Shown here one piece after another: positions 7,021 to 35,991 of a DNA stretch of 35,991 bases. The number at the start of each line of letters is the position of its first letter. Within the stretch, counting starts at the first letter, position 1. The position numbers were made by a program, and so were the translations under genes. Origin of the DNA: Campylobacterota bacterium. Lineage in GTDB: Bacteria > Campylobacterota > Campylobacteria > Campylobacterales > JAJVLF01. Where the stretch lies: assembly GCA_029255845.1 (NCBI GenBank), contig JAJVLF010000017.1:1-35991 (forward strand). The letters run 5' to 3'. Under the pieces are notes generated by a model. The model saw nothing but the letters and a program-made list of their open reading frames with translations, did not search any database and was not told the DNA's origin.

Positions 7021-7126
7021 AGGTTAATATTGTTTTTCATACTTTTTAATGTTATTTTTTATATGATTATTATATCTAAAATCTCTTATACAGCTACATA
7101 GGTGCTTATATTTCCTTTCTATTTCC

Positions 7127-8464
7127 TTAAGCAAAATAAACTTTAAAATATTTACCTTTTAATTTAGTATTATTTAATTTATCACAAGTTTTTTTAGAAA
7201 CCTTTCTTTTAATAGCCACAAAAGAGCAAAAATCTAAAATATCTATTCGTCCGACATCATCTTTCTCAATATTTATGGCTTTTATTAAAGTGCCTAAAAT
7301 ATCTCCTTTTCTTATTTTTTGTTTTTTACCAGCATTAATAAATAAAGTATCATATATTGGTGTAAAATCATATTTTTCATTTATTGTTAGGCTTGATGGT
7401 GATTGTAGGGTTTGTTCTTTATTGTATGTGGTTTTTAGCTCTTGAAATAAATCAATATCTTGTATGTCTATTAAAGAGATGGCTTTGCCACTTTTACCTG
7501 CTCTTGCTGTTCGTCCTATTCTGTGAATATATGTTTCTAATGTGTTTGGGAAGTCATAATTTATTATGAGAGATATATCGTCTATATCAATGCCTCTTGA
7601 GGCTACATCGGTTGCTATTAAAATGGGGTGGCTTTTATTGGAGAATAATATTAGGGTTTCATTTCTTTCTTTTTGGTCTAAATCACTATGTAAGACCAAT
7701 GGGGAAAGATTGTTTTTTGTTAGTTTGTCTGATAGTTCATCGCATTCTATTTTAGTATTACAAAAAATTAGAACAGAATCTGGCTTATATGTATTAAAAA
7801 TCTTTAAAATATTTTGACATTTTTCATGATAGCTACTTTCATAAAAGACCTGCTCGATGATGTTTTCATTATGTGTAGATTCTATTACTATTTTAGTCGG
7901 TTTATTTAAAATATCTTTTGCTAAATCCTCAATGCCCAAAGGGTAAGTAGCAGAAAATAGCATAGTTTGTCTCTTTTTTGGGATATAAGAAATTATCTCG
8001 TTAATATCATCATAAAAGCCCATATCAAGCATTTTATCGGCTTCATCTAGCACTAGAGTATTTATATTTTCAGGATTAAAGTTTTCTTCTTTTAGATGTT
8101 TTAAAAGTCTTCCAGGAGTTCCTATGATGATATGAGCTTGATGAGAAAGTGAATGCACTTGAGGTCTGTAGGCAACCCCACCACATAAAGTTAATATTTT
8201 TACATTATGTTTATATCTAGCTATTTTTTTAAGCTCATTAGCTACCTGATTAGCAAGCTCTCTAGTGGGAGATATGACTAATGATTGTATTCTAAATTTA
8301 GAAACATCTAGCTTATGCAATAAAGCAATACCAAAAGAAGCCGTCTTTCCACTCCCCGTTTTAGCTTGAGCTATTAAATCATCACCATTTAAAGTAATAG
8401 GTAAAGATTTCTCTTGTATTTCGGTTAAATTATTATAGCCTAAGCTCTCTAAGTTGCTTAGCAT
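7127..8464 (-). CDS. dbpA: DEAD-box ATP-dependent RNA helicase, DbpA type
   Basis: 'AQAKTGSGKTASF', 'DEAD', 'SAT', 'HRIGRTARAGKSG', C-terminal DbpA-like RNA-binding domain 'KGDILGTLIKAINIEKDDVGRIDI'. The start may lie 7 codons upstream (8485, ATC); see findings. Confidence 0.93.
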   Translation of the reverse strand: MLSNLESLGYNNLTEIQEKSLPITLNGDDLIAQAKTGSGKTASFGIALLHKLDVSKFRIQSLVISPTRELANQVANELKKIARYKHNVKILTLCGGVAYRPQVHSLSHQAHIIIGTPGRLLKHLKEENFNPENINTLVLDEADKMLDMGFYDDINEIISYIPKKRQTMLFSATYPLGIEDLAKDILNKPTKIVIESTHNENIIEQVFYESSYHEKCQNILKIFNTYKPDSVLIFCNTKIECDELSDKLTKNNLSPLVLHSDLDQKERNETLILFSNKSHPILIATDVASRGIDIDDISLIINYDFPNTLETYIHRIGRTARAGKSGKAISLIDIQDIDLFQELKTTYNKEQTLQSPSSLTINEKYDFTPIYDTLFINAGKKQKIRKGDILGTLIKAINIEKDDVGRIDILDFCSFVAIKRKVSKKTCDKLNNTKLKGKYFKVYFA

Positions 8465-8497: not shown

Positions 8498-9178
8498 TTA
8501 ATTCATAATAGTAGCTAAAATTCCTTTAAGGGAATAATCACTTAATGTTTTATGGATAATATTTTTAGTTTCTTTATAGTCTATATTATGCTTTTTAGTC
8601 ATAAATTTTAAATTATTTAATATAGATTTATTATTTTTCATATTTAAAAGCTCATATAAAAATTTGGTTACTTCAAAAAAATAACTCTCATAATCTAAGT
8701 CTTTATATACCAATAAATATGTTTGCTTTTTTATTGATGGATTATCTAAATGAATGGAGTATTGACTTTTTATTAATCTCGCATTAATGCCTAATTTATA
8801 CCTTTTATTCCAAGAGAATTTATTAACTCTAAGCTCATTTGGTAAATTAAATATATTAATTTGAGCTAATTCAAATTTTAAAATATCTAAAGCAAATCTT
8901 CTTATTTCTAGCTTGTTTATTTCTATAAAGTTTATAAAATCTTTCATCATATACATTGGTAAGGGCATTATAGGTTTTGAATTTGCGATATACTCTTTTA
9001 TAAAAAAATCTAAATCTTCGCTTTTTGTTTGTTTGGTATATAATGGAAACCCTGAGCTTATGAAATGCCTTTTGGCATTAAAAATAAGATTTCTATATGT
9101 ATTAATGCCTTTAATTTTAGAGTCTTTTTTTTGTGTAATATCTTTAAAAAACTCTTTTTGTAAATCAGGCATTATCAC
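8498..9178 (-). CDS. HvfC/BufC-like partner protein (DUF2063-type N-terminus)
   Basis: Overlaps the 3' end of the DUF692 gene; N-terminal 'LQKEFFKDIT...YRNLIFNAKRHFISSGFPLY' resembles DUF2063 proteins. Confidence 0.65.
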   Translation of the reverse strand: MIMPDLQKEFFKDITQKKDSKIKGINTYRNLIFNAKRHFISSGFPLYTKQTKSEDLDFFIKEYIANSKPIMPLPMYMMKDFINFIEINKLEIRRFALDILKFELAQINIFNLPNELRVNKFSWNKRYKLGINARLIKSQYSIHLDNPSIKKQTYLLVYKDLDYESYFFEVTKFLYELLNMKNNKSILNNLKFMTKKHNIDYKETKNIIHKTLSDYSLKGILATIMN

Positions 9179-9992
9179 ATATTGTTTTAATTTTATTAAA
9201 TTCTTTTGCTAATGTTTTAAATGGCGGGATATTATTATCTCTTTCAAGCAACACAGGGGATTTTTTTCTTTTTAGAGTAAAATTTAATAGCTCTAAAACA
9301 TCATCTTTAACTTTTGAGCCATGAGTGTCTATCAAATCCCCATTATCTGTCTTTAAATGACCTGCTATATGATGATATGCGATATGCTCCTCATTTATTT
9401 CTTCTATAAATTTATATGGAGAGAAATTATGATTTTTAGAATTTACATATACATTATTTACATCAAGAAGTAGCTTTGAGCCACTTTTTTTACAGACTTG
9501 ATTAATAAACTCACTTTCACTAAATTCACTCTCTATATCATAATACCAAGAGGCATTTTCTAAAATTAATTCTCTATTTAGAAAGTTTTGAACATAATCG
9601 ATATTATCAACTATTGATTGCACAGATTTGTTAGTTAAAGGGGGTGGCAAAAGCTCATAGGTTTGCTTGCCATGAAAATGACAAAAAGAAAAATGCTCTG
9701 AGTAATGCTTAAAACCCCATTCATCTAAAAACTTTTTCATTTTAATTAAAAATAATTTACTCATACCTTCTTTCATTTGCGAGGTCTCAGAAGCGATAGA
9801 AAGAGATACCCCATGGCACATTATAGGATATTTATCTACTAGATTTTTAAATAATTTTTGATGTTTTTTTGGGATGACAAACCAATTTTCTGGAATAATC
9901 TCAAGCCAATTAGGTTGTAATATAGAGCTATCAAGCAAATCATACATAAACTCATCTCTTAGACCTATCCCTAAGCCTTGAAATTTTTTCAT
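9165..9992 (-). CDS. DUF692 / multinuclear non-heme iron oxidase (MNIO; HvfB/BufB/MbnB family)
   Basis: 'GLGIGLRDEF', 'HGVSLSIAS', 'SEHFSFC', 'LLDVNNVYVNSKNH', 'HIAGH...IDTHGSKVKDDV', 'LLERDNNIP'. Confidence 0.92.
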   Translation of the reverse strand: MKKFQGLGIGLRDEFMYDLLDSSILQPNWLEIIPENWFVIPKKHQKLFKNLVDKYPIMCHGVSLSIASETSQMKEGMSKLFLIKMKKFLDEWGFKHYSEHFSFCHFHGKQTYELLPPPLTNKSVQSIVDNIDYVQNFLNRELILENASWYYDIESEFSESEFINQVCKKSGSKLLLDVNNVYVNSKNHNFSPYKFIEEINEEHIAYHHIAGHLKTDNGDLIDTHGSKVKDDVLELLNFTLKRKKSPVLLERDNNIPPFKTLAKEFNKIKTICDNA

Positions 9993-20335: not shown

Positions 20336-21844
20336 TTAAACCCCTATCCGAACAACCTCATCAAAAGAAGTCTGCCCATTTTCAACTAACTCTCTTAATC
20401 TATCTGAAAGAACTAACAAACCTTTTTTAACTGCCATAGTCCTTAGAGCATAATCATTACTTTCAGTTTTCATCATTATTTTAACATCATCATCTATTAT
20501 AAATAATTCTCCTACTGCTTTTCTTCCTATATATCCTGAGTAATTGCATTTTTTACATGAGCTGTGTTTGTATACTGTGGTGGTTGTTTTTATTTTTAGG
20601 CTTTTTTTGATTTCTATATTTAGATTATCTTCTTGTTTGCAGTCTTCGCATAATATTCTTACTAGTCTTTGAGCTAAAACACCTAATAAGGAAGATGATA
20701 ATAGGAAATTTTCCACTCCCATATCTAGCATTCTGGAGATGGAGGCTGTTGCATTATTGGTATGTAGGGTTGATAGAACTAAATGTCCTGTTAATGCAGC
20801 TTGGGTTGCTATTTTTGCTGTTTCACTATCTCTTATTTCTCCTATCATTACTATATCTGGGTCTTGTCTTAGTATGCTTTTTAATCCTGAGGCGAAAGTT
20901 AGACCTACTTTATTATTTACTTGTATTTGGCTTATGTCATTGCTTTTATACTCTACTGGGTCTTCTACTGTTATTATGTTTTTTTCTGGGGATACTATTT
21001 TATGCATTAATGAATGTAGGGTTGTTGATTTACCGCTTCCCGTGGGTCCTGTTACTAAGATAATGCCGTAAGAGTTTTTAATTAATTCATTTAAGTCATC
21101 AATTATATCTTTTTTAAAGCCCAATTCATCTAATGATGGAATTTGTGAGCTTTGCATTAATATCCTCATAACAACTCTCTCACCATAATATGTTGGCAAA
21201 ATAGAGACCCTTATGTCTAGGGTATTTCCTGCTATTTTTATTTGGGTTCTTCCATCTTGTGGAATTCTTTTTTCAGATATGTCTAAATTAGATATTACCT
21301 TAATTCTTGATATTATAAGGTTCATTATATTAATTGCTAGTTTAGCATGAGTTATTAGCACTCCATCTACTCTGTATCTAACTAAACCCTCTTTTTCATG
21401 CATTTCTATATGAATATCACTTGCTTTCTTTTTTACACCTTGATAAAAGAGAGAATTAACAAATTTAATAATAGGGGCAGATTCTTCGCTCTCTAATATA
21501 TCCGCAGATGTTTTTAGAAACTCAGTTAAGCTAATTTCTTCTTCATCTTCATATTCTTCGCTTTTGGCTTCTATGCCATCTAAGTCTTTATCTGTTCTTG
21601 CTTCGAGGCATTTATTATATAGCCTATCAAAGCTTTCTTCATCTAAAAAACAAAGAGGATAATCAAAATGATACTTCGCAATATACCCTAAAGAAATAGT
21701 CATATACTTTTCATATATAGCTATGCTTATTTGCTCATCTATCATTGTAAATAAGCAATAATTCTTTACTGCTAAATGATTATCAACTCCATCTACTTCT
21801 AATGGCTCAAGCTCTGTATTATGTATATGCTGACTAAGTCCCAT
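20336..21844 (-). CDS. gspE: Type II secretion ATPase GspE
   Basis: 'ASDIHIEMHEKEGLVRYRVDGVL', Walker A 'GPTGSGKSTTLHS', 'EDPVEYK', 'ILRQDPDIVMIGEIRDSETA', C-terminal CxxC pair. Confidence 0.95.
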   Translation of the reverse strand: MGLSQHIHNTELEPLEVDGVDNHLAVKNYCLFTMIDEQISIAIYEKYMTISLGYIAKYHFDYPLCFLDEESFDRLYNKCLEARTDKDLDGIEAKSEEYEDEEEISLTEFLKTSADILESEESAPIIKFVNSLFYQGVKKKASDIHIEMHEKEGLVRYRVDGVLITHAKLAINIMNLIISRIKVISNLDISEKRIPQDGRTQIKIAGNTLDIRVSILPTYYGERVVMRILMQSSQIPSLDELGFKKDIIDDLNELIKNSYGIILVTGPTGSGKSTTLHSLMHKIVSPEKNIITVEDPVEYKSNDISQIQVNNKVGLTFASGLKSILRQDPDIVMIGEIRDSETAKIATQAALTGHLVLSTLHTNNATASISRMLDMGVENFLLSSSLLGVLAQRLVRILCEDCKQEDNLNIEIKKSLKIKTTTTVYKHSSCKKCNYSGYIGRKAVGELFIIDDDVKIMMKTESNDYALRTMAVKKGLLVLSDRLRELVENGQTSFDEVVRIGV

Positions 21845-21845
21845 T

Positions 21846-23711
21846 TTATAATTCTAATTCTTCATAATCTTCTGTTATTTCTTCTGCTTTATTTTTATAG
21901 TTTTTTGTCAATTCTTTTAAATATGCTCTTTTTAATACTTCTAATTCAGATAGCTCTTCTCTTAAATCCGATAAACTAGAGCCTTTAGCGATAATATAAG
22001 GAGTTAAAATAATAACTAAATTTATATTATCTTCCACATCTTGCTTGGAAGAAAATAAATATCCTATAAGAGGTATATCAGATAAAATAGGCAATCCCCC
22101 GCTTCCTTTTGATTGTCTTTTTCTAGTAAGCCCACCTACTATTACACTTTCTCCATGACTAACAATAGCAGCTGTTTTTACTTCTCTTTTTGTGGTTGTA
22201 GGAGAGCCTGTGCCTCCTGTGCCTTCTAGGACATCTTGGATTACGACATTTATATTTAATGTTACTCTTTCATCACTTGATATTCTTGGTTTTACTTTTA
22301 GAGTAATTCCTATATCTTCTCTTTTAAAACTATTTTTAGTAGTTGTGGTTGTAGAAGATGAGCTTGTAATTATTGATATGGTTTCTGCTACTTTTATTGT
22401 GGATTCTTGATTGTTTATACAAGAAATAGAAGGCTCAGAGACTATCTTAGCGGCTGAATTATCAACAAGAAAATCTATACTAGCTCCTATAACAGCTCCA
22501 CTTTTTGAAGATGTATCAATTGATTTTGATAATACAGATGAAGCAATTGATTTTCCCCCTGTATTAGCAGAAAAGCTAAATAAACCAGCTCCCGTTACAG
22601 CTCCTCCCTCTACTCCATATTTCACACCCATTGAATCTGATTTTTTCTTATTTATCTCAATAATTTGTGCTTTTACATATACTTGTTGTTGTGATACATC
22701 AAGTTTTTTTATTAGATTTATTATAGACCTAAGCTCTCTTGGAGGACCTACTAGAAGTATTCTATTGGATTTATTATCTGCTCCTATATATGGCTTATCT
22801 GCGGTATTTTTATAATGTTTTTTGGCTATTATAGGGGACATTATTTTTAATATATCTTTCGCATCAGCATTTTGAAGATATATTACTTCTGTTGTTTTTT
22901 CTGTTTCTTTATTTGCATCTCTATCTACTTTTTCGATATATGCTTGTAAATATTTTAAGTTTTTTCCACTTCCTATTAATATAAGTGATTGTATATCTTT
23001 ATTAATCATAATAGTAACTTGATTTTCTAAAACCCCACTACCAAACAATGAACGAGCTATTTTTTGAGCCTCAGAAGATATAGAATTTAATGCCACATTT
23101 TTAATAGGGATAGTAATAAGCTTCTTATCAATGCCTCTTTCTAGTAATTTAATGGCTTGTTTGATAAGCTTTATATTTTTTGGGTAATCTGTAATAATTA
23201 AAGTATTAGTATTTCTATTAGTAAGCACTTTCCCATATCTTGATGCTATATGTTTTATTTTAGAAGATATTACATCCACATTTTCTCGTTTTATATCTAT
23301 AAACTCTGTAATAAATTGCTGTAGGTTTTCTAAGTCACTATCTCCAAATACAATAGGTATTCTTGATTTTGATGCTTCCGTGCTTCTAACAATCTTTAAA
23401 GTATTTTCATCTCCTACAAGAGTAAACCCCTTATTGTCTAAAACAGATATTAGTATATCAACAAGCTCTTTTTTTCTAACTGGCTTGGTTCGGACAAAAT
23501 CTACTTTACCGCTTATCTTTTGGCTTAGTAGGATGTTTTTATCAAGCACTTTAGATGTTATTTTAATTAAATCTAATATTGGCAAATCTTTAAAGTCAAT
23601 ATTTACAATATCATCCCCATCTGTAATAAAAACCTTCTTTTTCTTTTTAGCATCTAAAGACATACTACTTACAATAAGTATAGCTAAAATAACCCTTAAA
23701 AATTTACCCAT
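21846..23711 (-). CDS. gspD: Type II secretion secretin GspD
   Basis: N-domains plus secretin C-domain 'VKAQIIEINKKKSDSMGVKYG', 'ESVIVGGLTRKRQSKGSGGLPILSDIPLIGYLFSSK'. Confidence 0.95.
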   Translation of the reverse strand: MGKFLRVILAILIVSSMSLDAKKKKKVFITDGDDIVNIDFKDLPILDLIKITSKVLDKNILLSQKISGKVDFVRTKPVRKKELVDILISVLDNKGFTLVGDENTLKIVRSTEASKSRIPIVFGDSDLENLQQFITEFIDIKRENVDVISSKIKHIASRYGKVLTNRNTNTLIITDYPKNIKLIKQAIKLLERGIDKKLITIPIKNVALNSISSEAQKIARSLFGSGVLENQVTIMINKDIQSLILIGSGKNLKYLQAYIEKVDRDANKETEKTTEVIYLQNADAKDILKIMSPIIAKKHYKNTADKPYIGADNKSNRILLVGPPRELRSIINLIKKLDVSQQQVYVKAQIIEINKKKSDSMGVKYGVEGGAVTGAGLFSFSANTGGKSIASSVLSKSIDTSSKSGAVIGASIDFLVDNSAAKIVSEPSISCINNQESTIKVAETISIITSSSSTTTTTKNSFKREDIGITLKVKPRISSDERVTLNINVVIQDVLEGTGGTGSPTTTKREVKTAAIVSHGESVIVGGLTRKRQSKGSGGLPILSDIPLIGYLFSSKQDVEDNINLVIILTPYIIAKGSSLSDLREELSELEVLKRAYLKELTKNYKNKAEEITEDYEELEL

Positions 23712-24571
23712 TAATACACTTCATAATCAATTTCCTTTGTTTCATTTCCTCGTTTAATAGAAAGCTTTAATCTTTTCACATTGTCTATATTATAGTATAT
23801 TTTAAATGCATCTCCATAGCTTTTTAAAGATTTATCATTCACATGAGTGATGACATCTTCTTTTTTAAGTCCTAATTTAGAAAATAAACTACCTTCTTTT
23901 ATTTTTCTTATTCTAAAGCCTACTATCTTTTTATTTACTATTTTCTCTTTTATGGATATTTCTTTCCATATACTCTTATAATCATTTCTATATTTGAATA
24001 TCTTTTCTCTTGGTATAGCTAGTATGCTATCATCTGTATTTGCTTCTCTTGTTTTATCTCGCACACTTATTATATTATCATTTTTTGAAGAGGCTTTTTT
24101 ATCTTTAATGCCATCTATGGCCATATTATATTTTGTGCCATCTTTATCAAATATAGCCTCAGATGTTGTTGTATTTACAGATACTAATGTATATAAATCT
24201 TTTAATTTATCATTTAAATCTACTAAAATAGATTTTTCATTTTTCTTGCCTTTTTTATCATGGACAATTATAAATGTATTTTCTTTTTTATTTGCATTAT
24301 AATATATAGCTTTTAGAGTAAATTGTGTTAATTCTAAAATAGGCTTTACGACTTTAGGAGGCTCTATTTTCTTAATAGGCTTTATAAAGATTTTATTGAT
24401 ATTTAGCCTATAATAGTCTATTTCTATGCTTTTTTTTGGCATTGTTTCTAAACCCACATTAGAAAATATAAAATACAAAGGAGTATATATCACAAAACAA
24501 AAAGCAATAACCATAAAGATATTTGCTAAAAAAGAAATGATATTTTTATCTAAACTTATATTCATAAACAT
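23711..24571 (-). CDS. gspC: GspC-like inner-membrane protein with C-terminal PDZ-like domain
   Basis: Single N-terminal TM; 'GFRIRKIKEGSLFSKLGLKKEDVITHVNDKSLKSYGDAFKIYYNI'. Confidence 0.8.
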   Translation of the reverse strand: MFMNISLDKNIISFLANIFMVIAFCFVIYTPLYFIFSNVGLETMPKKSIEIDYYRLNINKIFIKPIKKIEPPKVVKPILELTQFTLKAIYYNANKKENTFIIVHDKKGKKNEKSILVDLNDKLKDLYTLVSVNTTTSEAIFDKDGTKYNMAIDGIKDKKASSKNDNIISVRDKTREANTDDSILAIPREKIFKYRNDYKSIWKEISIKEKIVNKKIVGFRIRKIKEGSLFSKLGLKKEDVITHVNDKSLKSYGDAFKIYYNIDNVKRLKLSIKRGNETKEIDYEVY

Positions 24572-25073
24572 ATCCTCCTTTATTATCTTTTTTCATCATA
24601 GAGAGGATTTTATTATATTTTGTTTTTAGTATTTTAGATGGTTTTAGCTTGATTAGTAAGGTTTTTGATAATAAATCAATATGCCCTTTAAGCTCTCCTA
24701 TATTGCCAATAGAATCTATATTTATAGTAGTAGGAGAAAAAATATTATGAGATATATGAATATCATTAATTTCTCTTGGCATAAACTCATTAAGATGTCT
24801 GTTTATCTTTATGCCTTCTATGTCTATATTATTAAATAATATCATTAAACTAAAAGACATTTCTTTAATATTTGCTATCTTTATATCTTGATAGTAGATT
24901 TTAGCTCCATCAATATAAAATAAATTTAAAATATCTTTTGTTTTTTCTCCATTGATATATACTTGTTGCTTAGCTATAGTAGATTCTAGCTTATAATACA
25001 GTATATTTTTAGGCATTATAGCTATAAGTATCAATAAAGAAATAATAAGTAAGACTGGTGTTAGTTTATTCAA
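24546..25073 (-). CDS. GspN-like T2SS accessory protein (TTG start)
   Basis: Position in operon; 'GELKGHIDLLSKTLLIKLKPS'; TTG start overlapping the upstream TGA (TTGA). Confidence 0.55.
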   Translation of the reverse strand: MNKLTPVLLIISLLILIAIMPKNILYYKLESTIAKQQVYINGEKTKDILNLFYIDGAKIYYQDIKIANIKEMSFSLMILFNNIDIEGIKINRHLNEFMPREINDIHISHNIFSPTTINIDSIGNIGELKGHIDLLSKTLLIKLKPSKILKTKYNKILSMMKKDNKGGYVYEYKFR

Positions 25074-25477
25074 AATGTAATGTCCATAGCAAATGTTTTA
25101 TTATAATCATCTTTTGTTTTTATAGATAGAGTATTGATACTCCAGCTGGTGGAAAGGATTTTATTGCTTAATTTATGGATTTTATTTAATTCATCCACTT
25201 TAGCATCTATATCTATATGGGCTTTTCTTTTGGTTATTTTACTTTGCATATATTGCCCATCAAATCCAGATGAGTTTAATATATTATTCATTTTTTTATC
25301 TGCATTTTTATTATTATATCTCACCCTTAAGCCATTTAGGTATTTACCTTCTTGTTTTAGTTTTTCTATATTTATGTTTTTATTTTCTATTTTTTGATGT
25401 AAAGTGCTATTTTTATATGCAAAAACTATGGCCACTAAGAACATTAAAGCTGATATATGAAGTTTATTTATAGTCAA
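25070..25477 (-). CDS. GspM-like T2SS protein (TTG start)
   Basis: N-terminal TM, coiled region, position between L-like and N-like genes; TTGA overlap. Confidence 0.55.
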   Translation of the reverse strand: MTINKLHISALMFLVAIVFAYKNSTLHQKIENKNINIEKLKQEGKYLNGLRVRYNNKNADKKMNNILNSSGFDGQYMQSKITKRKAHIDIDAKVDELNKIHKLSNKILSTSWSINTLSIKTKDDYNKTFAMDITF

Positions 25478-26577
25478 AACTCACCTTTTATGCTTAATAT
25501 ATTATCTTGAATTCTTAAAGAGTTTAATTCAAAATATTTTAATAAGTATTGTTTATAGTCTTCTGCACCTTTTAACTCTTCTTCTTTACTTTTATTATCA
25601 TCACTTTCTTTTATAGATATCGCAAGAATGAATTGCCCATCTCTTATATCTATATCTCTCATAAAATCCCCTGTTTTTAGAGGAATATCAAATAAATTTT
25701 GGATATTTTCTTTTATTTTTATTTCTTGTGATAGTTTTTTTTCTAAAGATTTTTTTATACTTTTTAGCTGTAATGATGAGGTCGGTATTTTATATTTATT
25801 TATTATTGTTCTCTCTTGTTTAATTACTTTATTATAATCATCTTTTAACACAAAATATCTTGTCGCTAGAGAAAAAGCAATTATAGAAATAGATATAACT
25901 AAAATATTAATATATTTTGAGTCTAACATCCCATCATTTAGGCTTATATTCAAATTATGTTTTGATTTTTTAATATTGTTTAGTGAAAACTCTAAACTTT
26001 CTATTTCTACATCTGCTTTCAAAAGAGATTTAGGTAAAACAACATAAATATCATCTCTATTATATAGGCATTTATCATCATCTATTGTGATAATATCATT
26101 AGTAAATTCATTTTGAGCAAGGTATATTTTACTCACTAAAGACAAATCAAGATTAGAGTTTTTTAATGTATCAAGTATCTTTTGTGAATCATAAGCAAAA
26201 AGTATAAAATCATCATTATCTTTAATAGCAAAATACTTATATTCCCCATCAGGGACTTGAGAGCCAAAACAAGAAAGAGCTAATTTAGATGCTTTACTCT
26301 CACTACTAACAGGCAATGATTCTCTTTTTACCCAATAAAACACAGGAGATAAAACAATATTACAAGGTTTATCTATATATGATAAATCCACATTTTCATT
26401 ATGAATAAAAATATTAAAATCCACATTTAGTGACTTTTTATAAGCATTAATTCTAGTATTTATTTCATTAATAATTAGTTTTAATGTTTCACGACTAAAG
26501 ATGCTATCCACATTTAGTGACTTTTTATAAGCATTAATTCTAGTATTTATTTCATTAATAATAGATTTTAATGTCAC
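25474..26577 (-). CDS. GspL-like T2SS protein, GTG start preferred
   Basis: Cytoplasmic domain + TM + periplasmic region; GTG at 26577 preceded by AAGGA-N5, better than the ORF-track start at 26631. Confidence 0.65.
   Translation of the reverse strand: MTLKSIINEINTRINAYKKSLNVDSIFSRETLKLIINEINTRINAYKKSLNVDFNIFIHNENVDLSYIDKPCNIVLSPVFYWVKRESLPVSSESKASKLALSCFGSQVPDGEYKYFAIKDNDDFILFAYDSQKILDTLKNSNLDLSLVSKIYLAQNEFTNDIITIDDDKCLYNRDDIYVVLPKSLLKADVEIESLEFSLNNIKKSKHNLNISLNDGMLDSKYINILVISISIIAFSLATRYFVLKDDYNKVIKQERTIINKYKIPTSSLQLKSIKKSLEKKLSQEIKIKENIQNLFDIPLKTGDFMRDIDIRDGQFILAISIKESDDNKSKEEELKGAEDYKQYLLKYFELNSLRIQDNILSIKGEF
26419..26562. repeat. 57-bp perfect direct repeat, 87-bp period, in frame in gspL
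   Basis: Copies at 26419-26475 and 26506-26562; encodes IINEINTRINAYKKSLNVD twice. Confidence 0.92.
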
Positions 26578-27469
26578 TTGCTTCCTTTTTCTCAAAATTA
26601 TATTTAAAAATTGCTTTTGTTTTCTTCTCAAATACTGTTATATCTAGTCTGCATATAGCTAGCCAAGATTTTGTTTTTATATTTAATGCACTAAATGTTG
26701 TATTATGTTCTTTACCAAATGCCTCATTTAAATCACTAATAGTTTCATTTTTATCTACAATCTGCTTAATCTCTTCTATATCTTTTTTTGTAATTTGTGA
26801 TAATAGGCTTGTATCCATATAATTAATATCTATATTAGCATCATCAAATCTAAAATATTTATTAAAATCCACTTTATTAATATTGCTATCTGTTGTTTGT
26901 TTTATATAATAATCTTTAATCTTCTTTAAATGTCCTAAAGAAGATATAAATCCATTCTCAAATCTATTATCTCTATAAGCTATCTCACTTACCGAAGCTC
27001 GTGGTTCTAAATCCTTGTCAATACTGTCAGCTAATATATCTAAAAAATAATCCACATCCACCACATTAGCTTCATATAATAATCGTGCAATTATATCATA
27101 AATGTGCTGATTATATTGAGTGGTAGTTTCATTATTTTTTTTATAATAAACTATAAGATTATTGATATTTATTTTTTTATTATCAGGAGCAAATTTTATA
27201 GACATCTCAATGCCACTTTTTTTATCTTTGAAACTTATATCTTGTGCTAATAAAATATCAAAAGTTTCTTTATTGCTCACAAAAGAGGACTTGCTCTTTA
27301 AGACATTTATAATATTAGAAATTAATATATTATTTTGATGGATTAATTTACTATGATTGTATAAATTGAAGTTTTTTTTTGTGATTTCTGTATTTATACC
27401 AATGATGACTATTAAAACTCCCATTAAAAAAATAGTGGATATTAGTATAATGCCTCGTTTTTGTTTTAT
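26555..27469 (-). CDS. gspK: GspK-like minor pseudopilin, probable ATA start
   Basis: In-frame extension upstream of ATG 27424 gives (M/I)KQKRGIILISTIFLMGVLIVIIGINTEI, a prepilin-type N-terminus. Confidence 0.8.
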   Translation of the reverse strand: MKQKRGIILISTIFLMGVLIVIIGINTEITKKNFNLYNHSKLIHQNNILISNIINVLKSKSSFVSNKETFDILLAQDISFKDKKSGIEMSIKFAPDNKKININNLIVYYKKNNETTTQYNQHIYDIIARLLYEANVVDVDYFLDILADSIDKDLEPRASVSEIAYRDNRFENGFISSLGHLKKIKDYYIKQTTDSNINKVDFNKYFRFDDANIDINYMDTSLLSQITKKDIEEIKQIVDKNETISDLNEAFGKEHNTTFSALNIKTKSWLAICRLDITVFEKKTKAIFKYNFEKKEASDIKIYY

Positions 27470-27984
27470 TTTTTTAACCAGAAGCCTTGACCTTCATATA
27501 TGCTACCTCTATCAGATATTGTTCGCTCTTTCCAGACATATCTTTTGAGTTTATCGCTATATTTAAATTCCCATAAAATAGAAGCTCTAAATAAACCTAT
27601 AATATCATTCACTCTTTCACTATAAGCTGACATACCAATCAAATTCCATCCATCATTGATTTGTAATTTACTAATTTGATACCCTGTCTTTCTTGGCAAG
27701 CTTATATTTTCATCTTTACTCATTTTAATCCAAAAGCCTTGACCTGGTGGAATACTCGCACCATAGTTTTTGCTCCATTTATTAGAAGAAAATGTCCATA
27801 AGGTATTATTATCAACATTTTTAATAGTAGATGTATCAAGAACTGCATTAGTAGGGGGAGAAATTAAATTCCATCCAACTCTTAGCTTAATTTTAGCTTC
27901 TTGCACATTAACAAGATTTGGGGAGGGGGGACCCTGTGATAGGGAGATTTGCATCAAAATAAATAATAAAAATAATTTATTCAT
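27466..27984 (-). CDS. Secreted protein with two GWNL...GQGFW repeats, first gene of the T2SS operon
   Basis: Signal peptide 'MNKLFLLFILMQISLSQ'; 'GWNLISPP...GQGFWIK' and 'GWNLIGMS...GQGFWLKK'; stop overlaps the gspK ATA start. Confidence 0.75.
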   Translation of the reverse strand: MNKLFLLFILMQISLSQGPPSPNLVNVQEAKIKLRVGWNLISPPTNAVLDTSTIKNVDNNTLWTFSSNKWSKNYGASIPPGQGFWIKMSKDENISLPRKTGYQISKLQINDGWNLIGMSAYSERVNDIIGLFRASILWEFKYSDKLKRYVWKERTISDRGSIYEGQGFWLKK

Positions 27985-28028
27985 TGATGCGATTTACAAA
28001 TAGCTTATGCTATTTGTAAATATAAAAC

Positions 28029-28310
28029 TTATTTACCAGCTTCTACTTGGTCTTTAAATTTTTTACCAGCTTTAAATGAAGGAACATTTTTATCATTAGT
28101 TTTATACTTTTTCTTAGTTCCAGGAACTAAACCTTCTCTACCTTTTTGTAGTTTTCTTGAAAATGAACCAAATCCAATAAATTCTACTTTATCACCTTTA
28201 GCAACAGCACCAGTAATAGTAGCAAAAGCACTCTCAATCATTTTTCTTGTAGCATCTTTAGTAGTTCCACAATCCTTAGCAACAGCCGAAATAAAATCAC
28301 TCTTATTCAT
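28029..28310 (-). CDS. HU-family DNA-binding protein
   Basis: 'MNKSDFISAVAKDCGTTKDATRKMIESAFATITGAVAKGDKVEFIGFGSFSRKLQKGREGLVPGTKKKYKT'. Confidence 0.95.
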   Translation of the reverse strand: MNKSDFISAVAKDCGTTKDATRKMIESAFATITGAVAKGDKVEFIGFGSFSRKLQKGREGLVPGTKKKYKTNDKNVPSFKAGKKFKDQVEAGK

Positions 28311-28340
28311 AAATAAACCTTTTTTTTAAATATGGAGGTT

Positions 28341-28369
28341 ATTTTATTGAAAAAAAAAACTATTGTCAA
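28341..28369 (-). promoter_or_regulatory. Sigma70-type promoter for HU with a T10 spacer tract
   Basis: Minus strand TTGACA-N17-TAAAAT; the spacer contains ten consecutive T. Confidence 0.65.
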
Positions 28370-28448
28370 GATAATTATTGATTTATTAGTGCAAAATTTA
28401 GTATTATAGGGGGGGTTGTCAAGAAATAATAAATAAAAAGGATTTAAA

Positions 28449-29588
28449 TTGCACAAAATTGAAGAATACACAGATGATTATTTACTAAATATATTTAAAA
28501 AGTATATATTTATATCTACCTCTATTTTATTGGTTTTATTTATTAAATACATACATATCAACCCTGCCTTACTTTTTCCTATTGTTTTAAATGTGGTTGT
28601 GTTTTATATTGTTAAATATAATGCTCCTATAAAGATAATGACTCATATTTTTATTATTATACTTTTACTATCTATATTAGGAAGCTTCTTTTATATCACA
28701 CATAATTCATTTTTGGTGTTTTTAATAATGGTATCTATGTTTCCTTATTTGACATTTTCTTTAATTAAATTTGATATGGCTATTGTTTATAATGTTATTT
28801 TACCTTCTAGTATATTTATTCTTAATCAATATCTTGGGCTTTTAGATATTATTGATAATAGTATTTTATTGGTATTTTACTTTTTAACTACTCTTTCTTC
28901 TTTATTTTTTGCTACATCTAGAATATTTCAAGTAAAAAATATAGAAAATATTAGTAGCTATTTAGATAATGAAATAAAACTAAGAGATGATAAAATAGAT
29001 GATTTAGATAATGAAATTACAAAATTACTAAATAAGGTTGATAATTTAAAAATCAAAGATGATATTACAGGGTTTTATAAAAAAGATATTACGATAGAAT
29101 TTTTACAAAATGAGGTTATAAAATCTATAAGGCTTAATCATACACTTTTATTAACTTGTATTCATATTAAAAATTATACAAGAATACAGCAACTCTATGG
29201 AGAAGAAACTCTCAAAAAAGCTCTTAAAGAAGTATCTCAAGCTTTAAAAGCCACTATAAGAAGAACAGATGTTATAGGATATTTTGATAAAGAAACCTTT
29301 ATGTGTATAATGCCTAATACTTCTTTTGATAATTTTTCTATACTTTCAAATAAAATATCTAAGCAAGTTAAAAAAATAGTAGTAGAAAAATTTTTTATAG
29401 AAATATCTATGGGAATATCATCAATAAATGGTGCAAACTATGATATACAAATAATAGTAGATGAAAAAGAATTTAGCATAGTATCACAAATGCTAAATAT
29501 GTCAAGACAAGGTGTAAATATAGCTAATAGAGAAAATGTTCCTTTTCATCATTTTGAAATTAAGGAAAATTCTAATTCAGCAAACTAA
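28449..29588 (+). CDS. Membrane protein with degenerate GGDEF domain (TTG start)
   Basis: N-terminal TMs and coiled coil; 'DDITGFYKKD...RRTDVIGYFDKETFMCIMPNTSFDN' aligns with GGDEF proteins but has DKETF in place of GGDEF. Confidence 0.8.
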   Translation: MHKIEEYTDDYLLNIFKKYIFISTSILLVLFIKYIHINPALLFPIVLNVVVFYIVKYNAPIKIMTHIFIIILLLSILGSFFYITHNSFLVFLIMVSMFPYLTFSLIKFDMAIVYNVILPSSIFILNQYLGLLDIIDNSILLVFYFLTTLSSLFFATSRIFQVKNIENISSYLDNEIKLRDDKIDDLDNEITKLLNKVDNLKIKDDITGFYKKDITIEFLQNEVIKSIRLNHTLLLTCIHIKNYTRIQQLYGEETLKKALKEVSQALKATIRRTDVIGYFDKETFMCIMPNTSFDNFSILSNKISKQVKKIVVEKFFIEISMGISSINGANYDIQIIVDEKEFSIVSQMLNMSRQGVNIANRENVPFHHFEIKENSNSAN

Positions 29589-29649
29589 GATTATTTTCAG
29601 CACAAACTAAAGTTATTTTAAAGTAAAACTAAAGTTATTTTAAAGTTAA
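29585..29649. repeat. Three tandem about-22-bp repeats ending in a sigma28-like -35 element
   Basis: AAACTAAGATTATTTTCAGCAC / AAACTAAAGTTATTTTAAAGTA / AAACTAAAGTTATTTTAAAGTT. Confidence 0.75.
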
Positions 29650-29656
29650 ACGATAT
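29629..29656 (+). promoter_or_regulatory. Sigma28-like promoter upstream of giant protein 1
   Basis: TAAAGTTA-N13-CGATATC, near-identical to the flagellin promoter elements (TAAAGTTA...CGATAT); about 30 nt from the ATG. Confidence 0.5.
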
Positions 29657-29683
29657 CAATATCATATAAATATCAAACTCAGG

Positions 29684-32600
29684 ATGGATAATATGTATAA
29701 GGATATATTTAAAGGTTATTTTAATTTACTGTTAGTTGTTTGTTTCAGTGTTTTTCTAAATTCTGGAGCACATCAACTTTGGCTCACAAATGGAGTATGG
29801 CAACCCGTAGGAATTCAAGGTATCTATACACTTGATCAAGGTGCTACTACTTGGGAAGCAGATTTCACAAATATTATAGAAGATAGAGCAGATTCAAATG
29901 CTACTTATGTGAGAGGCGATAAGGCAACTGCAAATAATTATTATGTAGATAAAAATAATATGATGGTAAAAGATTATCATACTTTAACTTCAAAACTTCA
30001 TGCCACCATAGGGTTATTTGCGATTAAAGGTGGAACTTCAAAAAAAGTATCAAATTATATTGACTTAGATGGATCTGAAAAAAATAATGTAAAAATGAAA
30101 GTTCTCAAAACTAGAGATAAAGATTATAATCTTCCTATGTATCGTATGTATATAGAGGGAAGACCAAATGTTCCTGCTATTAGGATAGATTATCAAGCTG
30201 ATTATGAGGGGGATAAATTTAGAATTAAATTTGGAGAAGAAGAAGAAGATTATTATGCTTATTTTAGATCAACTGCTACTTTTCAACATCCATCAAAACT
30301 AAGAGTAGAAGTGATAGAAAAAATTACTTCAAGCTCACCTATTGATAGAGCGGTTGATTTTAATATATCAGATAATAGTTTATTATTATTAGCAGAAAAT
30401 TCATTTAAAATATTAGATGATGATGGGATTACTGTAGGAGGAGATGGGGTTACACCATTTAATCCTTCCAAAGGTGATTTTTTAACTATGTATAGCTTTA
30501 ATGGTTATAAATGGGATATTTTTAATAGCACGAATATAAATATAGGTTCAAATGATTTTGAAAAATTTAATCCTGGCACTGGCTATTGGGCGCTTGCAGA
30601 AAGCCAAAATGCTCATAATGATAATAATCAAAGTAAAATAGGCATAATTACCAAAGATGAGCATGAAATACTAGATGAAACATATGCTAATGTGATAGAT
30701 GGGTGGAATATGCTATCTTTTCCTAAAGGAGATTTGCGATATGCTACTTCTGGTATGTTTATTCCTTTAGATGTAATTTTTGCCGAAAATGGAATTAATT
30801 TATTTTTCTCGCATTTAGGTAATGTGGATGCTACTTTGGCTAATTCAAGAGGAAATAATATTATCTTAGAAGCTAATGGCACAGTAAGTTATGTTGATTT
30901 TAATGATTCTGGAGATGTGGCACAATATATAAATCTAGCTGTTAAAAATAAACAAATAATGTATTCAGAAGAAACTAATTTAAGAGCATTTCCAGCTATG
31001 GGTGTTAATGGTCTTAATACTAAAAGAGGAGTTATGCTAATATCAAATCATCTTTTTGAGGTAAATAGCTCTAATTCTTCAATTACTACATTAACAGGAA
31101 GTCCCCTTAGACCAACAGTATATAACACTTATTCTTCTATATATGGAGAATATTTCTTAGGAATAGAAGTGAATGATTTAAGTGGCACAGATATTAATGG
31201 CTCTATAGATATATTTATGCCTGGAGCTAAATTTAGCTCAGCTGGTGCTAAAGCTTATGACTTAAATAATTCTACTACTACACCAGATGGTGTTATAAAA
31301 ACAATAAATTCTATTGGTAGTGCACTAAATAGAGCAGCTATTCCACTTAATGAAACAGCTGGTGGAACACCAACAGAAACTTTTTTAATAGACTTTAAGT
31401 TTGAGACACAAAAATTAGTTAAAGATTATGATAACCCTATCTCATTTCCATCTATATTGCTATCTACTCAAACAAGGTTTAGCATAAGAGATACTACATA
31501 TATGCAGGTATTTAGGCATGAACATAATGGTTCATTTTATGTAGTAGGAGCAAAATCTGAGCTTGTGAAAAGTGGTGGTGGAGTTACTTTAAAAGATGCC
31601 ATAAACTCCAAAAAGGATATTACTAATATAGTTTATACAGATTTAGGAAATAAATATTTTTCTATATCTTCACCAACAATTAGAAATTTAGATTTATTAG
31701 AAGCAGACGATAGTTTTTATTCGAGATTATTTGATGATGTTGCTTTAAATAATGGAGATATTCCAAGAAAAAACCTAATGAGAGGGGCTGTTACTTTTGT
31801 GAGAGATCACAGAAATATAATGTCTGTAGATGTAAGAACCAATTTAAAAATACTAGAAGGCAATAAAACTATGCTTCCTAATGATACAAATTTTTCAGAA
31901 TATAATGTATCTCTTACAAATAATGGTGGTTTTAAAGTAAATGGTAGTTTTCCTTTTAGTTCAAAAGATTTAAAACCAAATGCTATTTGGTCTACAGATT
32001 TTCCTCAACAAGATGGACCTATAAATATGATGGCAAGACAAGGGAAAGAAATTTTAGAGATTATGACTATGAATAAATCATCAGCTAATGAAAACTATTG
32101 GGCTTTTACGGATTTGACAAAAGATCCAGATGAGTGGTATACTAGTGATCAAAAAGATACTCAAGATATTTTTCATATTTTTAATCAAAAAGCATATTGG
32201 GTAAAATTAAAAGATAAAATGAAAATAGTTCCACAGAGTGTAGATGCTAGTGCTAAAAATAGCTATATAGATAAACCAAATTCTAGTTTTAAAAGAAGAG
32301 TATATACACATTTTAATAATCATATAGTAGATGCTATAGGAAAAACCACAAATCATTTAGATCATACTTTAACGATAAAACTAGATAGAGGTTTTATGGA
32401 ACCTAATGAGCATTCTTATTATGATGTTTTAGCTATCATAGCAGGTGAAGAGCATAGATTAAGACATAATGGTCAAGGTTTTCAGATACGAATATCTTCT
32501 AATGAATTAAATATTAGAGAGAAAAATGATAATGTTAAATATCCTATACTAATAAAAGCCTATGATGGTTTTGGTAATAAATTTGAAGAAAATGCCACAA

Positions 32601-33592
32601 ATCATGTATGGAATATGGATTACTCTAAACCTAAAATACCTCATATAAAATGGAATACAGAAGGTGATTTAGTAGTTACGATAACAGAGGCAAACACCAC
32701 ATTTGAAATATATCAAGACTATATTTCTGATATAGGAATAGATAGATTAAAAAATAAATTAGCAAATAATAAATTAAGTGAAAATAATAATTTAGCATGG
32801 AAAGTTCCAGGAAATGCAGATGAGGGTGGTCTAAAAATATTAAAAATAATAGCTAAAAGAACTATACCAAATAATAATTTTTTATATTCAGATATGAAAG
32901 TATTTCCTTATGCTCCATTAAAACTTAAAGCAGGAGATGAAAAATCAAAAGAAAGTCTGCATATTTTATCAATAGATGCAAATAGTAGCAAAAATACTAT
33001 ATCTAATCCTTATTCATTTAAACAAAAGCAATATTTAACTCTTAAAGCTCCTAGTGATAGCATTACTCCTAAACATAATGGAAGTAATGGCATAGATAAT
33101 GGGGTAGAAATATCTAGATTGAAAAAAGCAATAGATGATAATGAGGCTATTAAGATGGTATATCATCCAGAAGGCCGTAATGAGGGAGATAAAAGACTTA
33201 GTGCTTTTGGTGGTAATGAAACTATGTATTTAAATATATTAAGTCAATTTCATACAGACCCCAAACCAATAGCATATATTACATATATTAAAGAATATGC
33301 TGGCAAACCTTTTTATGTATCCTATGATGGAAACCTATATAAAGGATTTTTTGCAAAAAGTGATAAACATAATAATGATGCTAATTCTTATAATTTATAT
33401 TCGGGTTCTATTAATGCATATTTTGACACAAGAGGACCTGAGGGAAATTTAATTGATTATGCAAAATCTAATCTTAATTCTCAGCCTATCATTATTCCTA
33501 GTAAGCCTATAGCAATTGACAATAATGCAAGTAAAGACTCAAATGACAGTAATGGCTCAAATCCAGCACCAGGAACACCTCCGTTGCCTTAG
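29684..33592 (+). CDS. Giant exported protein with GWNM/G-x-GYW repeats (paralogue 1)
   Basis: 1302-aa ORF, signal peptide-like N-terminus, 'NGVWQPVGIQG', 'FNPGTGYWALAE', 'VIDGWNMLSFP'; homologous to the following ORF. Confidence 0.85.
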   Translation: MDNMYKDIFKGYFNLLLVVCFSVFLNSGAHQLWLTNGVWQPVGIQGIYTLDQGATTWEADFTNIIEDRADSNATYVRGDKATANNYYVDKNNMMVKDYHTLTSKLHATIGLFAIKGGTSKKVSNYIDLDGSEKNNVKMKVLKTRDKDYNLPMYRMYIEGRPNVPAIRIDYQADYEGDKFRIKFGEEEEDYYAYFRSTATFQHPSKLRVEVIEKITSSSPIDRAVDFNISDNSLLLLAENSFKILDDDGITVGGDGVTPFNPSKGDFLTMYSFNGYKWDIFNSTNINIGSNDFEKFNPGTGYWALAESQNAHNDNNQSKIGIITKDEHEILDETYANVIDGWNMLSFPKGDLRYATSGMFIPLDVIFAENGINLFFSHLGNVDATLANSRGNNIILEANGTVSYVDFNDSGDVAQYINLAVKNKQIMYSEETNLRAFPAMGVNGLNTKRGVMLISNHLFEVNSSNSSITTLTGSPLRPTVYNTYSSIYGEYFLGIEVNDLSGTDINGSIDIFMPGAKFSSAGAKAYDLNNSTTTPDGVIKTINSIGSALNRAAIPLNETAGGTPTETFLIDFKFETQKLVKDYDNPISFPSILLSTQTRFSIRDTTYMQVFRHEHNGSFYVVGAKSELVKSGGGVTLKDAINSKKDITNIVYTDLGNKYFSISSPTIRNLDLLEADDSFYSRLFDDVALNNGDIPRKNLMRGAVTFVRDHRNIMSVDVRTNLKILEGNKTMLPNDTNFSEYNVSLTNNGGFKVNGSFPFSSKDLKPNAIWSTDFPQQDGPINMMARQGKEILEIMTMNKSSANENYWAFTDLTKDPDEWYTSDQKDTQDIFHIFNQKAYWVKLKDKMKIVPQSVDASAKNSYIDKPNSSFKRRVYTHFNNHIVDAIGKTTNHLDHTLTIKLDRGFMEPNEHSYYDVLAIIAGEEHRLRHNGQGFQIRISSNELNIREKNDNVKYPILIKAYDGFGNKFEENATNHVWNMDYSKPKIPHIKWNTEGDLVVTITEANTTFEIYQDYISDIGIDRLKNKLANNKLSENNNLAWKVPGNADEGGLKILKIIAKRTIPNNNFLYSDMKVFPYAPLKLKAGDEKSKESLHILSIDANSSKNTISNPYSFKQKQYLTLKAPSDSITPKHNGSNGIDNGVEISRLKKAIDDNEAIKMVYHPEGRNEGDKRLSAFGGNETMYLNILSQFHTDPKPIAYITYIKEYAGKPFYVSYDGNLYKGFFAKSDKHNNDANSYNLYSGSINAYFDTRGPEGNLIDYAKSNLNSQPIIIPSKPIAIDNNASKDSNDSNGSNPAPGTPPLP

Positions 33593-33595
33593 TGT

Positions 33596-33670
33596 CGGAT
33601 TACGGAGAACAGAGAACGGATTACGGAAAAAAGGGTTTAGATAACTTTACTCTGTAATCTGTAATCCGTT
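33596..33670. repeat. Direct/inverted CGGATTAC repeat cluster, terminator-like
   Basis: CGGATTACGGA at 33596-33606 and 33617-33627; inverted partner GTAATCCGTT at 33661-33670 (pairs with AACGGATTAC 33615-33624). Confidence 0.75.
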
Positions 33671-33769
33671 ATATTTAAAAATATACTCTTTTATTTATAA
33701 AATATTAAAGTTGTCGATGTCATACAAAATATTGTACATTTTACACATTGATTCAAAAAGGAGTTTGAA

Positions 33770-35991
33770 GTGATAAGTCAAGGAAGAATTAAAATAGGTA
33801 TAGTTTTATTTATATTACTAAATACTGTAATGTTAAATGCTGTTATACAAACAGAACTAAGAAATGGGGAGTGGCAACTAATAGGGTTTATGGGTCCTCA
33901 AAACTCTGCAGCATCAGGCTCATATAATGGAGATTTAAATAGAGAAGTAATAGATATAGCAGATGCAAATACTACTTATTTAGTAAAAGAAAGTAATGGT
34001 GCTAATGGACAACTAGCATATAAAACTGGTATATTAGATACAAATCTAGCAACAACTTATACAGGCACAACAACACAAATAGGCTCTAGTATAGGAATAT
34101 TTGCTATTAAAAATCAACAATCTCCATCAGGTGAAACTACTCTAGCTTCTACAGAAGCAACAGCTGTTAAAATGAAAATAGCTAATCCAAAACAATTTAT
34201 AATTAATTTACCAAAATATAGAATGTATATAAAAGGTAAATCAGCTCCTGCTGTTAGAGTAGATTATCAAGCAAACTATGAAGGACAAAAGATTAGTATG
34301 AAGTTTGGTAGTGAGACTAAAGATTATGTAGTGTATTTTAATCATGCTAATACTTTTATGTATCCAGCAATCCCACTAAATAGTGCTGATATTGAAGCAG
34401 GACAACATGATTCTTTGTCTACTCTTATACAAGATGCAATTGATTTTGATACTTCTGATAATAATATAACAGAAATGTTAGTTAATAATAGATATACCGT
34501 TAAAGATACAGCAGGTGTATATAATAAAGATTTAACTGACTTTTCTTCATCTACTGATTATCAAGCAACAGTATATAGGTTTTCTAATGGGGCTTGGGAG
34601 GTTTTTGATAGTAGAAATGCTAAACAAAGCTCTAATGCTTTTGATAAATTTAATACAGGTAAAGGGTATTGGGTTAAGATTGATAATGCTGCTACTGCTA
34701 GGGCAATAGCAGGTGAAGAATTAATTATTCCTAAAACAGGTTTAATAACTTCATCTTCAGCTATAATTAAAGATAATGCTTATATGAATGCTAAGACTGG
34801 TTGGAATTTATTATCATTTAAAGATACAAATATAAGATATGCTCCTAGTGGGGTTTTTATTCCTCAAAATGTTTGGAATAGAAATGATTTATTTGGTGGA
34901 GTTAGATTATTCTTTAAATCAGAAGGAAGATCTAATGGTGTTCTTAGTGGTAATATTAATTTAGGAACTACAATTGATAACAACTATTCAGATACAAATT
35001 CTGCAGCAAGAGCTATTAATTTAGCTATGCAAGTAAAAAATGATATATCAAGTGAGTTTCAAAAGATTAGAGCTATACCTGCTATAGATTTTAATGCTAC
35101 TGGTGGTGATAGCACACCAGGTATTATAATTTTATCAGATGGTTTGTTTGAGATAAATACTTCAGGAAATACAACAACTGGTGCTCCATTAAATCAAGTT
35201 ATAAAAACAATAGCTAAAGGGAAATTAAAGCAATTAGCTAATGGAAACTATGGTTCAGCATATGGTGAATATATGAACTTTATCAATATAAATACTGCTT
35301 TAGATGCTTCTCGTGATGTTAATGCTTCTCTATCTGTATATATTCATAATGGTAATTCTGCTGCTCAAAAAACAAATGCATTAAATGATGGTAATAATTC
35401 AAATAGATTAATAAATGTTTTAGATGCATTTACAAGAGCTGCTACTAAAAATGGGGAAACAGCTCCTTATACAAGAACGGCAGGGTATTTGGCAACAGTA
35501 AACTTTAATGCTGTTACTGACTATACTGATGATAATAATATGACTCATATGCTTATAGCTTCAGGAGAAAGATATTCTATTTCTGATTCTACTTTTACTA
35601 AAGTATATAAATATAAAGATGGTGGTAAATTTACAATAGTATCTTCAAAAGGTTCTACAAATGTAGATTCTTCTAGTGCTACTGATGCTACTGGGGCTGC
35701 GGATACTGTAGCAATTATTAATGCACAAACAGCAACTACAGGAGTCCGTGCAATAGATCTTGGTCAAGCAACAGGAACAACAAATCTATACTTTGCTATT
35801 ATGTCAACAGAAAAAGGTTTAGAATTATTAGAAAATGATTCTAAGAATTTATTTGAAGATATTGCATTGACTGATGGAGCTATTCCTAATATTGCTAGAA
35901 CAAGAGGAGCTATTACTACTGTTCATAGCACTAAGAACTTATTTGATACTAGTGTTGTTATTAATAGGGATGTTATTGATGGGAATGTTAG
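33770..35991 (+). CDS. Giant exported protein with GWNL/G-x-GYW repeats (paralogue 2), GTG start, truncated by window end
   Basis: AAAAGGAG-N6-GTG; signal-peptide-like N-terminus, 'NGEWQLIGFMG', 'LPKYRMYIKGKSAPAVRVDYQANYEGQKISMKFG', 'FNTGKGYWVKI', 'KTGWNLLSFKDTNIRYAPSGVFIP'. Not in the ORF track because it has no stop in the window. Confidence 0.85.
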   Translation, partial: MISQGRIKIGIVLFILLNTVMLNAVIQTELRNGEWQLIGFMGPQNSAASGSYNGDLNREVIDIADANTTYLVKESNGANGQLAYKTGILDTNLATTYTGTTTQIGSSIGIFAIKNQQSPSGETTLASTEATAVKMKIANPKQFIINLPKYRMYIKGKSAPAVRVDYQANYEGQKISMKFGSETKDYVVYFNHANTFMYPAIPLNSADIEAGQHDSLSTLIQDAIDFDTSDNNITEMLVNNRYTVKDTAGVYNKDLTDFSSSTDYQATVYRFSNGAWEVFDSRNAKQSSNAFDKFNTGKGYWVKIDNAATARAIAGEELIIPKTGLITSSSAIIKDNAYMNAKTGWNLLSFKDTNIRYAPSGVFIPQNVWNRNDLFGGVRLFFKSEGRSNGVLSGNINLGTTIDNNYSDTNSAARAINLAMQVKNDISSEFQKIRAIPAIDFNATGGDSTPGIIILSDGLFEINTSGNTTTGAPLNQVIKTIAKGKLKQLANGNYGSAYGEYMNFININTALDASRDVNASLSVYIHNGNSAAQKTNALNDGNNSNRLINVLDAFTRAATKNGETAPYTRTAGYLATVNFNAVTDYTDDNNMTHMLIASGERYSISDSTFTKVYKYKDGGKFTIVSSKGSTNVDSSSATDATGAADTVAIINAQTATTGVRAIDLGQATGTTNLYFAIMSTEKGLELLENDSKNLFEDIALTDGAIPNIARTRGAITTVHSTKNLFDTSVVINRDVIDGNV

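Follow-up and report, generated by a model that had tools for sequence, protein, structure and literature searches.

The window, by which we mean the whole 35,991-nucleotide stretch analysed here, is an entire contig (C79) of a 2.2 Mb genome, G000, from a group of environmental Campylobacter relatives in which a sequence unit that we call GWNL stands at the start or end of many large exported proteins. On its minus strand, from 27984 down to 20336, runs the gene order GWNL(172 aa)-gspK-L-M-N-C-D-E, and two genes for giant proteins lie on the plus strand (Table 1). The operon encodes both a GspD with an N0 domain and a GspE ATPase and is thus classed as a type II secretion system (T2SS), with the NCBIfam matches of GspE, GspD and GspC all falling below the curated cut-offs (GspD 321.7 against an equivalog cut-off of 351, GspE 554 against 630). 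We assigned gspK, L, M and N from BLAST matches in the corresponding operons of relatives, together with position and gene order. A preliminary description of this DNA spoke of a partial gsp operon. The set is in fact complete but scattered: contig C218 of the same genome carries gspG and gspH on its plus strand and gspJ and gspI on its minus strand, and gspF is on contig C29, so that GspC, F, G, H, I, J and K are all encoded in G000. These calls differ in basis, GspG exceeding its NCBIfam cut-off, GspF and GspI lying below theirs, GspH giving a weak match and GspJ being called from its prepilin motif and position.

Three observations concern the surroundings of the operon. The gap that separates the HU-type and GWNL genes contains an inverted repeat (TTTACAAATAGC/GCTATTTGTAAA, window 27988-28020) whose stem is not G+C-rich, a possible terminator or regulatory hairpin. 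At 8498-9992 of the window a pair of genes resembles, by eye only, DUF692 (MNIO-type) and DUF2063, possibly a modified-peptide locus. Viral contigs and plasmids were searched for and none was found; four viral pattern matches were seen.

Table 1. Features of the window and, in the last four rows, members of a ~200-aa family at other loci
Feature	Coordinates	Strand	Basis or remark
FtsW/RodA-type gene	downstream of gspE		by eye
gspE, ATPase	20336..21844	-	NCBIfam TIGR02533, 2e-166
gspD, secretin	21846..23711	-	NCBIfam TIGR02517, 9e-96
gspC	23711..24571	-	NCBIfam NF041515, 9e-18; PDZ domain
gspN	24546..25073	-	BLAST vs relatives (up to 1e-35) and position
gspM	25070..25477	-	weak BLAST (2e-5) and position
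gspL	25474..26631	-	BLAST vs operons of relatives
gspK, tip pseudopilin	26555..27469	-	BLAST vs gspK of G018, 1e-34; start codon inferred
GWNL/gspK overlap	27466..27475	-	seven-A run leading into the GWNL stop codon (TAA); gspK in -1 frame
Stand-alone GWNL protein, 172 aa, ends GFWLKK	27466..27984	-	ORF; unit HMM 53.5 and 31.7 bits
GWNL unit 2, aa 110-171	27472..27657	-	unit HMM
GWNL unit 1, aa 35-87	27724..27882	-	unit HMM
HU-type gene, 93 aa	upstream of the 172-aa GWNL gene		by eye
Giant 1, 1302 aa, begins with a signal peptide; its N-terminal GWNL pair is divergent and broken up by insertions	29684..33592	+
Giant 1, unit 1 second half (YSFNGYKW...GTGYWA)	30425..30592	+	12.1 bits; profile-profile 94%
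Giant 1, unit 2 first strand (DGWNMLSFP)	30698..30754	+	unit HMM and profile-profile
Giant 2, cut by contig end, 740 aa present	33770..35991	+
Giant 2, unit 1 second half (YRFSNGAW...GKGYWVK)	34511..34678	+	25.5 bits
Giant 2, unit 2 first strand (KTGWNLLSF)	34793..34888	+	6.9 bits alone; profile-profile
~200-aa family	L088 (G000:C218) 6877-7581
~200-aa family	L156 5647-6237
~200-aa family	L068 13269-13859
~200-aa family	L069 3729-4325

A stand-alone GWNL protein in contact with gspK

The 172-aa protein consists of a signal peptide and one pair of ~52-aa GWNL units, as the preliminary description had it, and both the open reading frame and the unit HMM bear this out. It gave no credible match in Pfam, NCBIfam or PHROGs. 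The reported overlap with gspK also stands, by way of an inferred start. The prepilin-type motif of gspK is KQKRG-IILIS, and no ATG, GTG or TTG occurs upstream of it; the likely start, judged from the sequence, is an ATA at 27469, which forms part of the ATAA closing the GWNL reading frame. Any gspK start upstream of the prepilin motif would bring the two genes into contact.

Alternatively, -1 frameshifting at the seven consecutive A residues could fuse the GWNL protein to GspK, since a canonical A AAA AAA heptamer directly precedes the GWNL stop and gspK lies in the -1 frame with none of the usual starts before its motif. We consider this highly improbable. An exported GWNL part in front of the GspK helix would put the body of GspK on the wrong side of the membrane, the ATA start in the ATAA overlap accounts for the same facts, and A7 runs are frequent in the window, with 19 on one strand and 32 on the other.

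The preliminary description had raised the further idea that this protein is a pilotin. The 172-aa protein (MNKLFLLFILMQISLSQGPPSP) is small, exported and encoded among gsp genes, as a pilotin or secretin assembly factor might be, but it has no lipobox and no cysteine, the cleavage region reading LSQ-GPP. Moreover, it amounts to a free copy of the module that ends many large exoproteins, searches of Pfam, NCBIfam and PHROGs gave it no known family, and in the gsp loci of about 18 relatives no GWNL gene precedes gspK. Such a role is hardly to be expected, and the idea finds no support here. A search with the 172-aa protein alone returned one related locus, in a genome apparently from a sulfidic cave. 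A second stand-alone GWNL protein, of 176 aa, is encoded in another relative, G020, where it clusters with a subtilase that bears GWNL, with an O-mannosyltransferase and with m144, a 144-aa secreted proline-rich protein considered below.

The GWNL module, its carriers and the giant proteins

The profile of the unit has 52 positions (consensus KKGWNLVGIPKNENISNIKSIFSNIKSIWIYKNGKWIKNPTTIKPGEGFWIK) and matches many proteins of G000 and its relatives. The units are mostly paired, about 70 aa apart, and a pair spans ~125 aa; GWNL is a ~52-aa, tryptophan-rich and probably beta-rich module. An alignment of 25 pairs found nothing credible in Pfam, NCBIfam or PDB sequences. AlphaFold models built from few sequences reached pLDDT values of 53 and 58, with a best Foldseek E of 0.16 that we treat as meaningless. 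Surface proteins in other phyla contain GWNL-like and G-YW motifs, an observation that serves purely as a lead. At the least, GWNL is a domain family unlisted in Pfam and NCBIfam that marks many exported proteins in several environmental Campylobacterota.

The placement of the module was analysed in 48 distinct complete carriers, which had been fetched for having the module, position within the protein not being a selection criterion. In 44 of them the GWNL block stands at one end of the protein, either at the extreme C-terminus or just behind the signal peptide, compared with a mean of 11 and a maximum of 21 in 20,000 draws with random placement. The last unit lies no more than 5 aa from the C-terminus in 22 carriers (random mean 1.2, maximum 7, again in 20,000 draws), and two units were detected in 32. 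A crude hydropathy test finds a signal-peptide-like start, the Sec signal of T2SS substrates, in 42 of the 48. A lipobox is present in none of them, as against 34 of 370 other signal-peptide- or transmembrane-like proteins from the same loci (p = 0.04), a background that includes inner-membrane proteins. The bodies of the carriers comprise subtilases, a beta-propeller and PKD, fibronectin and bacterial Ig domains, and are ordinary for T2SS-type exoproteins. Expansion of the module is patchy: G004 has at least 37 GWNL matches, including tandem proteins of 1619 and 2330 aa that end in a double pair of four units (L096), and most genomes have none. Two loci of G000, L091 and L092 (on C146 and C227), share their GWNL genes, which score equally, and are probably an assembly duplication, which slightly inflates the GWNL locus counts in this genome.

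The two giant proteins of the window had been said to share the GWNL signature, and this proves correct, though the resemblance is weak and divergent. Single-sequence scores are modest (Table 1). When the GWNL-pair profile was compared with one built from the giants and distantly related proteins, giant residues ~240-360 matched with 94% probability, while two control regions gave 0.1%. Both giants are N-terminal carriers in which a large insertion splits each GWNL unit. No credible match was found for giant 1 in Pfam, NCBIfam or PHROGs, or for giant 2 in Pfam or NCBIfam. Relatives of the giants occur at about ten further places in G000, and the giants of a family of genomes designated f14 align with those of the window over 1061 columns with 100% probability. 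A diguanylate cyclase gene adjoining the giants was considered as a link and dropped, as it is seen only in the window.

GWNL genes and the type II secretion genes

A second contact between GWNL and gsp genes is found on contig C218, where a subtilase with one C-terminal GWNL unit has a 4-bp ATGA overlap with gspI. The genes gspJ, gspG and gspH surround this pair, and m144 overlaps the subtilase gene. In G022 a GWNL-subtilase lies ~1.3 kb from gspJ with one opposite-strand gene between them, and further GWNL-subtilases occur in G020 and G001. The catalytic Asp/His/Ser motifs are apparently intact in the G000 and G020 enzymes; in that of G022, Glu replaces Asp. Most GWNL genes are not close to gsp genes. 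By our own rough estimate, which assumes some 15 GWNL loci, roughly 2,200 genes and a few gsp-adjacent slots, the probability that two GWNL genes would be placed beside gsp blocks by chance is near 0.001.

The m144 gene is found in 17 of the 399 genomes of the order; GspD is present in all 17, and 11 are GWNL-positive. In three genomes m144 lies inside a gsp operon: beside the GWNL-subtilase in G000, in the order gspG-H-I-J-m144 in G004, and in the order gspG-H-F-m144-SapC-family-TM protein-protein O-mannosyltransferase-PA14-like in G018 (L156, G018:C238, 3538-9621). It also adjoins GWNL genes in G020, G022 and G154 and a giant-type gene in seven genomes of family f14. Through the G018 operon, T2SS is possibly linked to the SapC family (Pfam PF07277) and to the O-mannosylation of proteins, and the SapC-family gene in it is a neighbor hint, the one we have, of S-layer membership. 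The idea that m144 resembles the N-terminal domain of DsbC found no support among PDB sequences. Separately, a ~200-aa family with an N-terminal membrane helix adjoins gsp genes in several genomes, including genomes in which no GWNL protein was detected (Table 1).

The GWNL profile matches 34 of the 399 genomes of the order, and GspD is present in 33 of these as compared with 206 of the 399 overall (Fisher 2e-9, kinship ignored); the lone GspD-negative genome is a 480-contig assembly that contains GspD fragments. A phylum-wide draw yielded no GWNL outside the order, the genomes listed in it all being of this same order. The expected co-occurrence is seen, and we initially accepted it as support, but it does not discriminate. 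A control with the generic extracellular domain PKD_4 finds GspD in 70 of 71 genomes, and because the same pattern is obtained, the co-occurrence says little about a specific tie and was largely set aside; lifestyle may explain it. In addition, no GWNL module was detected in 173 of the 206 genomes with a T2SS, so that the module is not a general T2SS requirement.

The PKD result lends weight to a reading in which GWNL is a general extracellular binding domain, carried by large surface proteins, with no special tie to T2SS, its operon positions being accidents local to G000 and its co-occurrence a reflection of a free-living lifestyle. The limitation of the GWNL-gspK pair to one genome and the patchy expansion of the module agree with this. 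We regard it as rather unlikely, as there are two independent gsp overlaps in a single genome and m144 occurs both in three gsp operons and, elsewhere, beside GWNL and giant genes. The proposal of a dedicated secretion substrate family gains support from the GWNL-subtilase that overlaps gspI and from the m144 links among gsp operons, GWNL genes and giant-type genes.

Putative roles of the module and comparison with known systems

As a whole, these results are best read as indicating a family of T2SS-exported proteins whose terminal module serves either to retain them at the cell surface or to dock them to the secreton. We rank retention first, as a tentative choice. GWNL carriers would cross the inner membrane in a Sec-dependent manner, non-acylated, exit through the T2SS and remain on or near the cell surface, with GWNL, mostly in pairs, as a putative terminal retention module and the giants as presumed divergent members of the family. 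The 172-aa protein would be the free module, translationally coupled with the tip pseudopilin GspK, and may be either a small protein that partners the exoproteins at the surface or a first cargo. The use of the module at either end, its pairing and its aromatic content suggest a retention role; in particular, placement at either end would sooner be expected of a module that binds or anchors than of an export tag that is processed.

Ranked second, and with distinctly lower probability, GWNL would be a docking signal recognised by the T2SS, probably through the GspI-J-K tip, with the 172-aa protein as a dedicated adaptor or tip subunit. GspK and GspI are located in the pseudopilus tip, and the two GWNL genes of G000 that directly overlap gsp genes are coupled to precisely these two, which suggests docking there. 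The recurrence of the stand-alone form in G020, clustered with a GWNL-subtilase and m144, points in the same direction. On the other hand, within the order the module is missing from most genomes that have a T2SS, which hence recognise cargo without it, GWNL-rich relatives have no GWNL gene at gspK, and export tags do not usually vary between the two ends of a protein.

The retention reading has parallels in the SLH, GW and choline-binding modules, which are repeated, aromatic-rich and placed at either end of surface proteins, as GWNL is; the GWNL alignment shows no Pfam relation to them. In type IX secretion, a terminal domain (CTD) is carried by many exoproteins and also by the protease and machinery components PorU and PorZ. 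GWNL likewise ends exoproteins, a protease and the product of a machinery-linked gene, but here the machinery is T2SS and the module is also N-terminal, and 25 GWNL members gave no credible match to type IX CTD models in NCBIfam or Pfam. A T2SS counterpart of the type IX CTD/sortase logic, with a GWNL docking signal read by the tip, the 172-aa protein as adaptor and the GWNL-subtilase processing cargo, is conceivable but improbable. The choice of cargo is a long-standing open question in T2SS because, to our knowledge, no common cargo signal is known. A terminal module on many candidate cargoes, made alongside two tip pseudopilins, would offer a directly testable handle on it.

Associations of T2SS with a terminal module common to several proteins, or with a dedicated surface protein, are already known (PMC3237569, PMC6219818, PMC7821379, PMC12802150); we found no description of the GWNL module and its operon coupling in the literature searched. 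GspN-dependent T2SS lipoproteins carry a sorting motif (PMC12802150), and the present system resembles theirs in having GspN and putatively surface-held cargo but differs in that none of the 48 carriers has a lipobox. For Slr4 of Pseudoalteromonas and the Aeromonas S-layer, a dedicated T2SS lies beside the S-layer gene (PMC7821379). A gsp cluster is similarly linked here with genes for large surface proteins, but many different carriers share the terminal module, and a surface lattice is not something that we infer from the genes. A further comparison is with the GlyGly-CTERM proteins and rhombosortase, which have been linked to T2SS export (PMC3237569, PMC6219818). There too a terminal module is found on many unrelated exoproteins, some of them serine proteases, with T2SS export and surface placement, which the GWNL carriers would share. 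No GWNL member matched GlyGly-CTERM in NCBIfam, and in place of a Gly/Ser-rich motif, hydrophobic stretch and basic end the C-termini are module strands of the GFWIKK type. Whereas GlyGly-CTERM is C-terminal only, tripartite and cut at its hydrophobic stretch (PMC3237569, PMC6219818), GWNL is a folded-looking ~125-aa pair, without such a stretch, that is used at either end of the protein.
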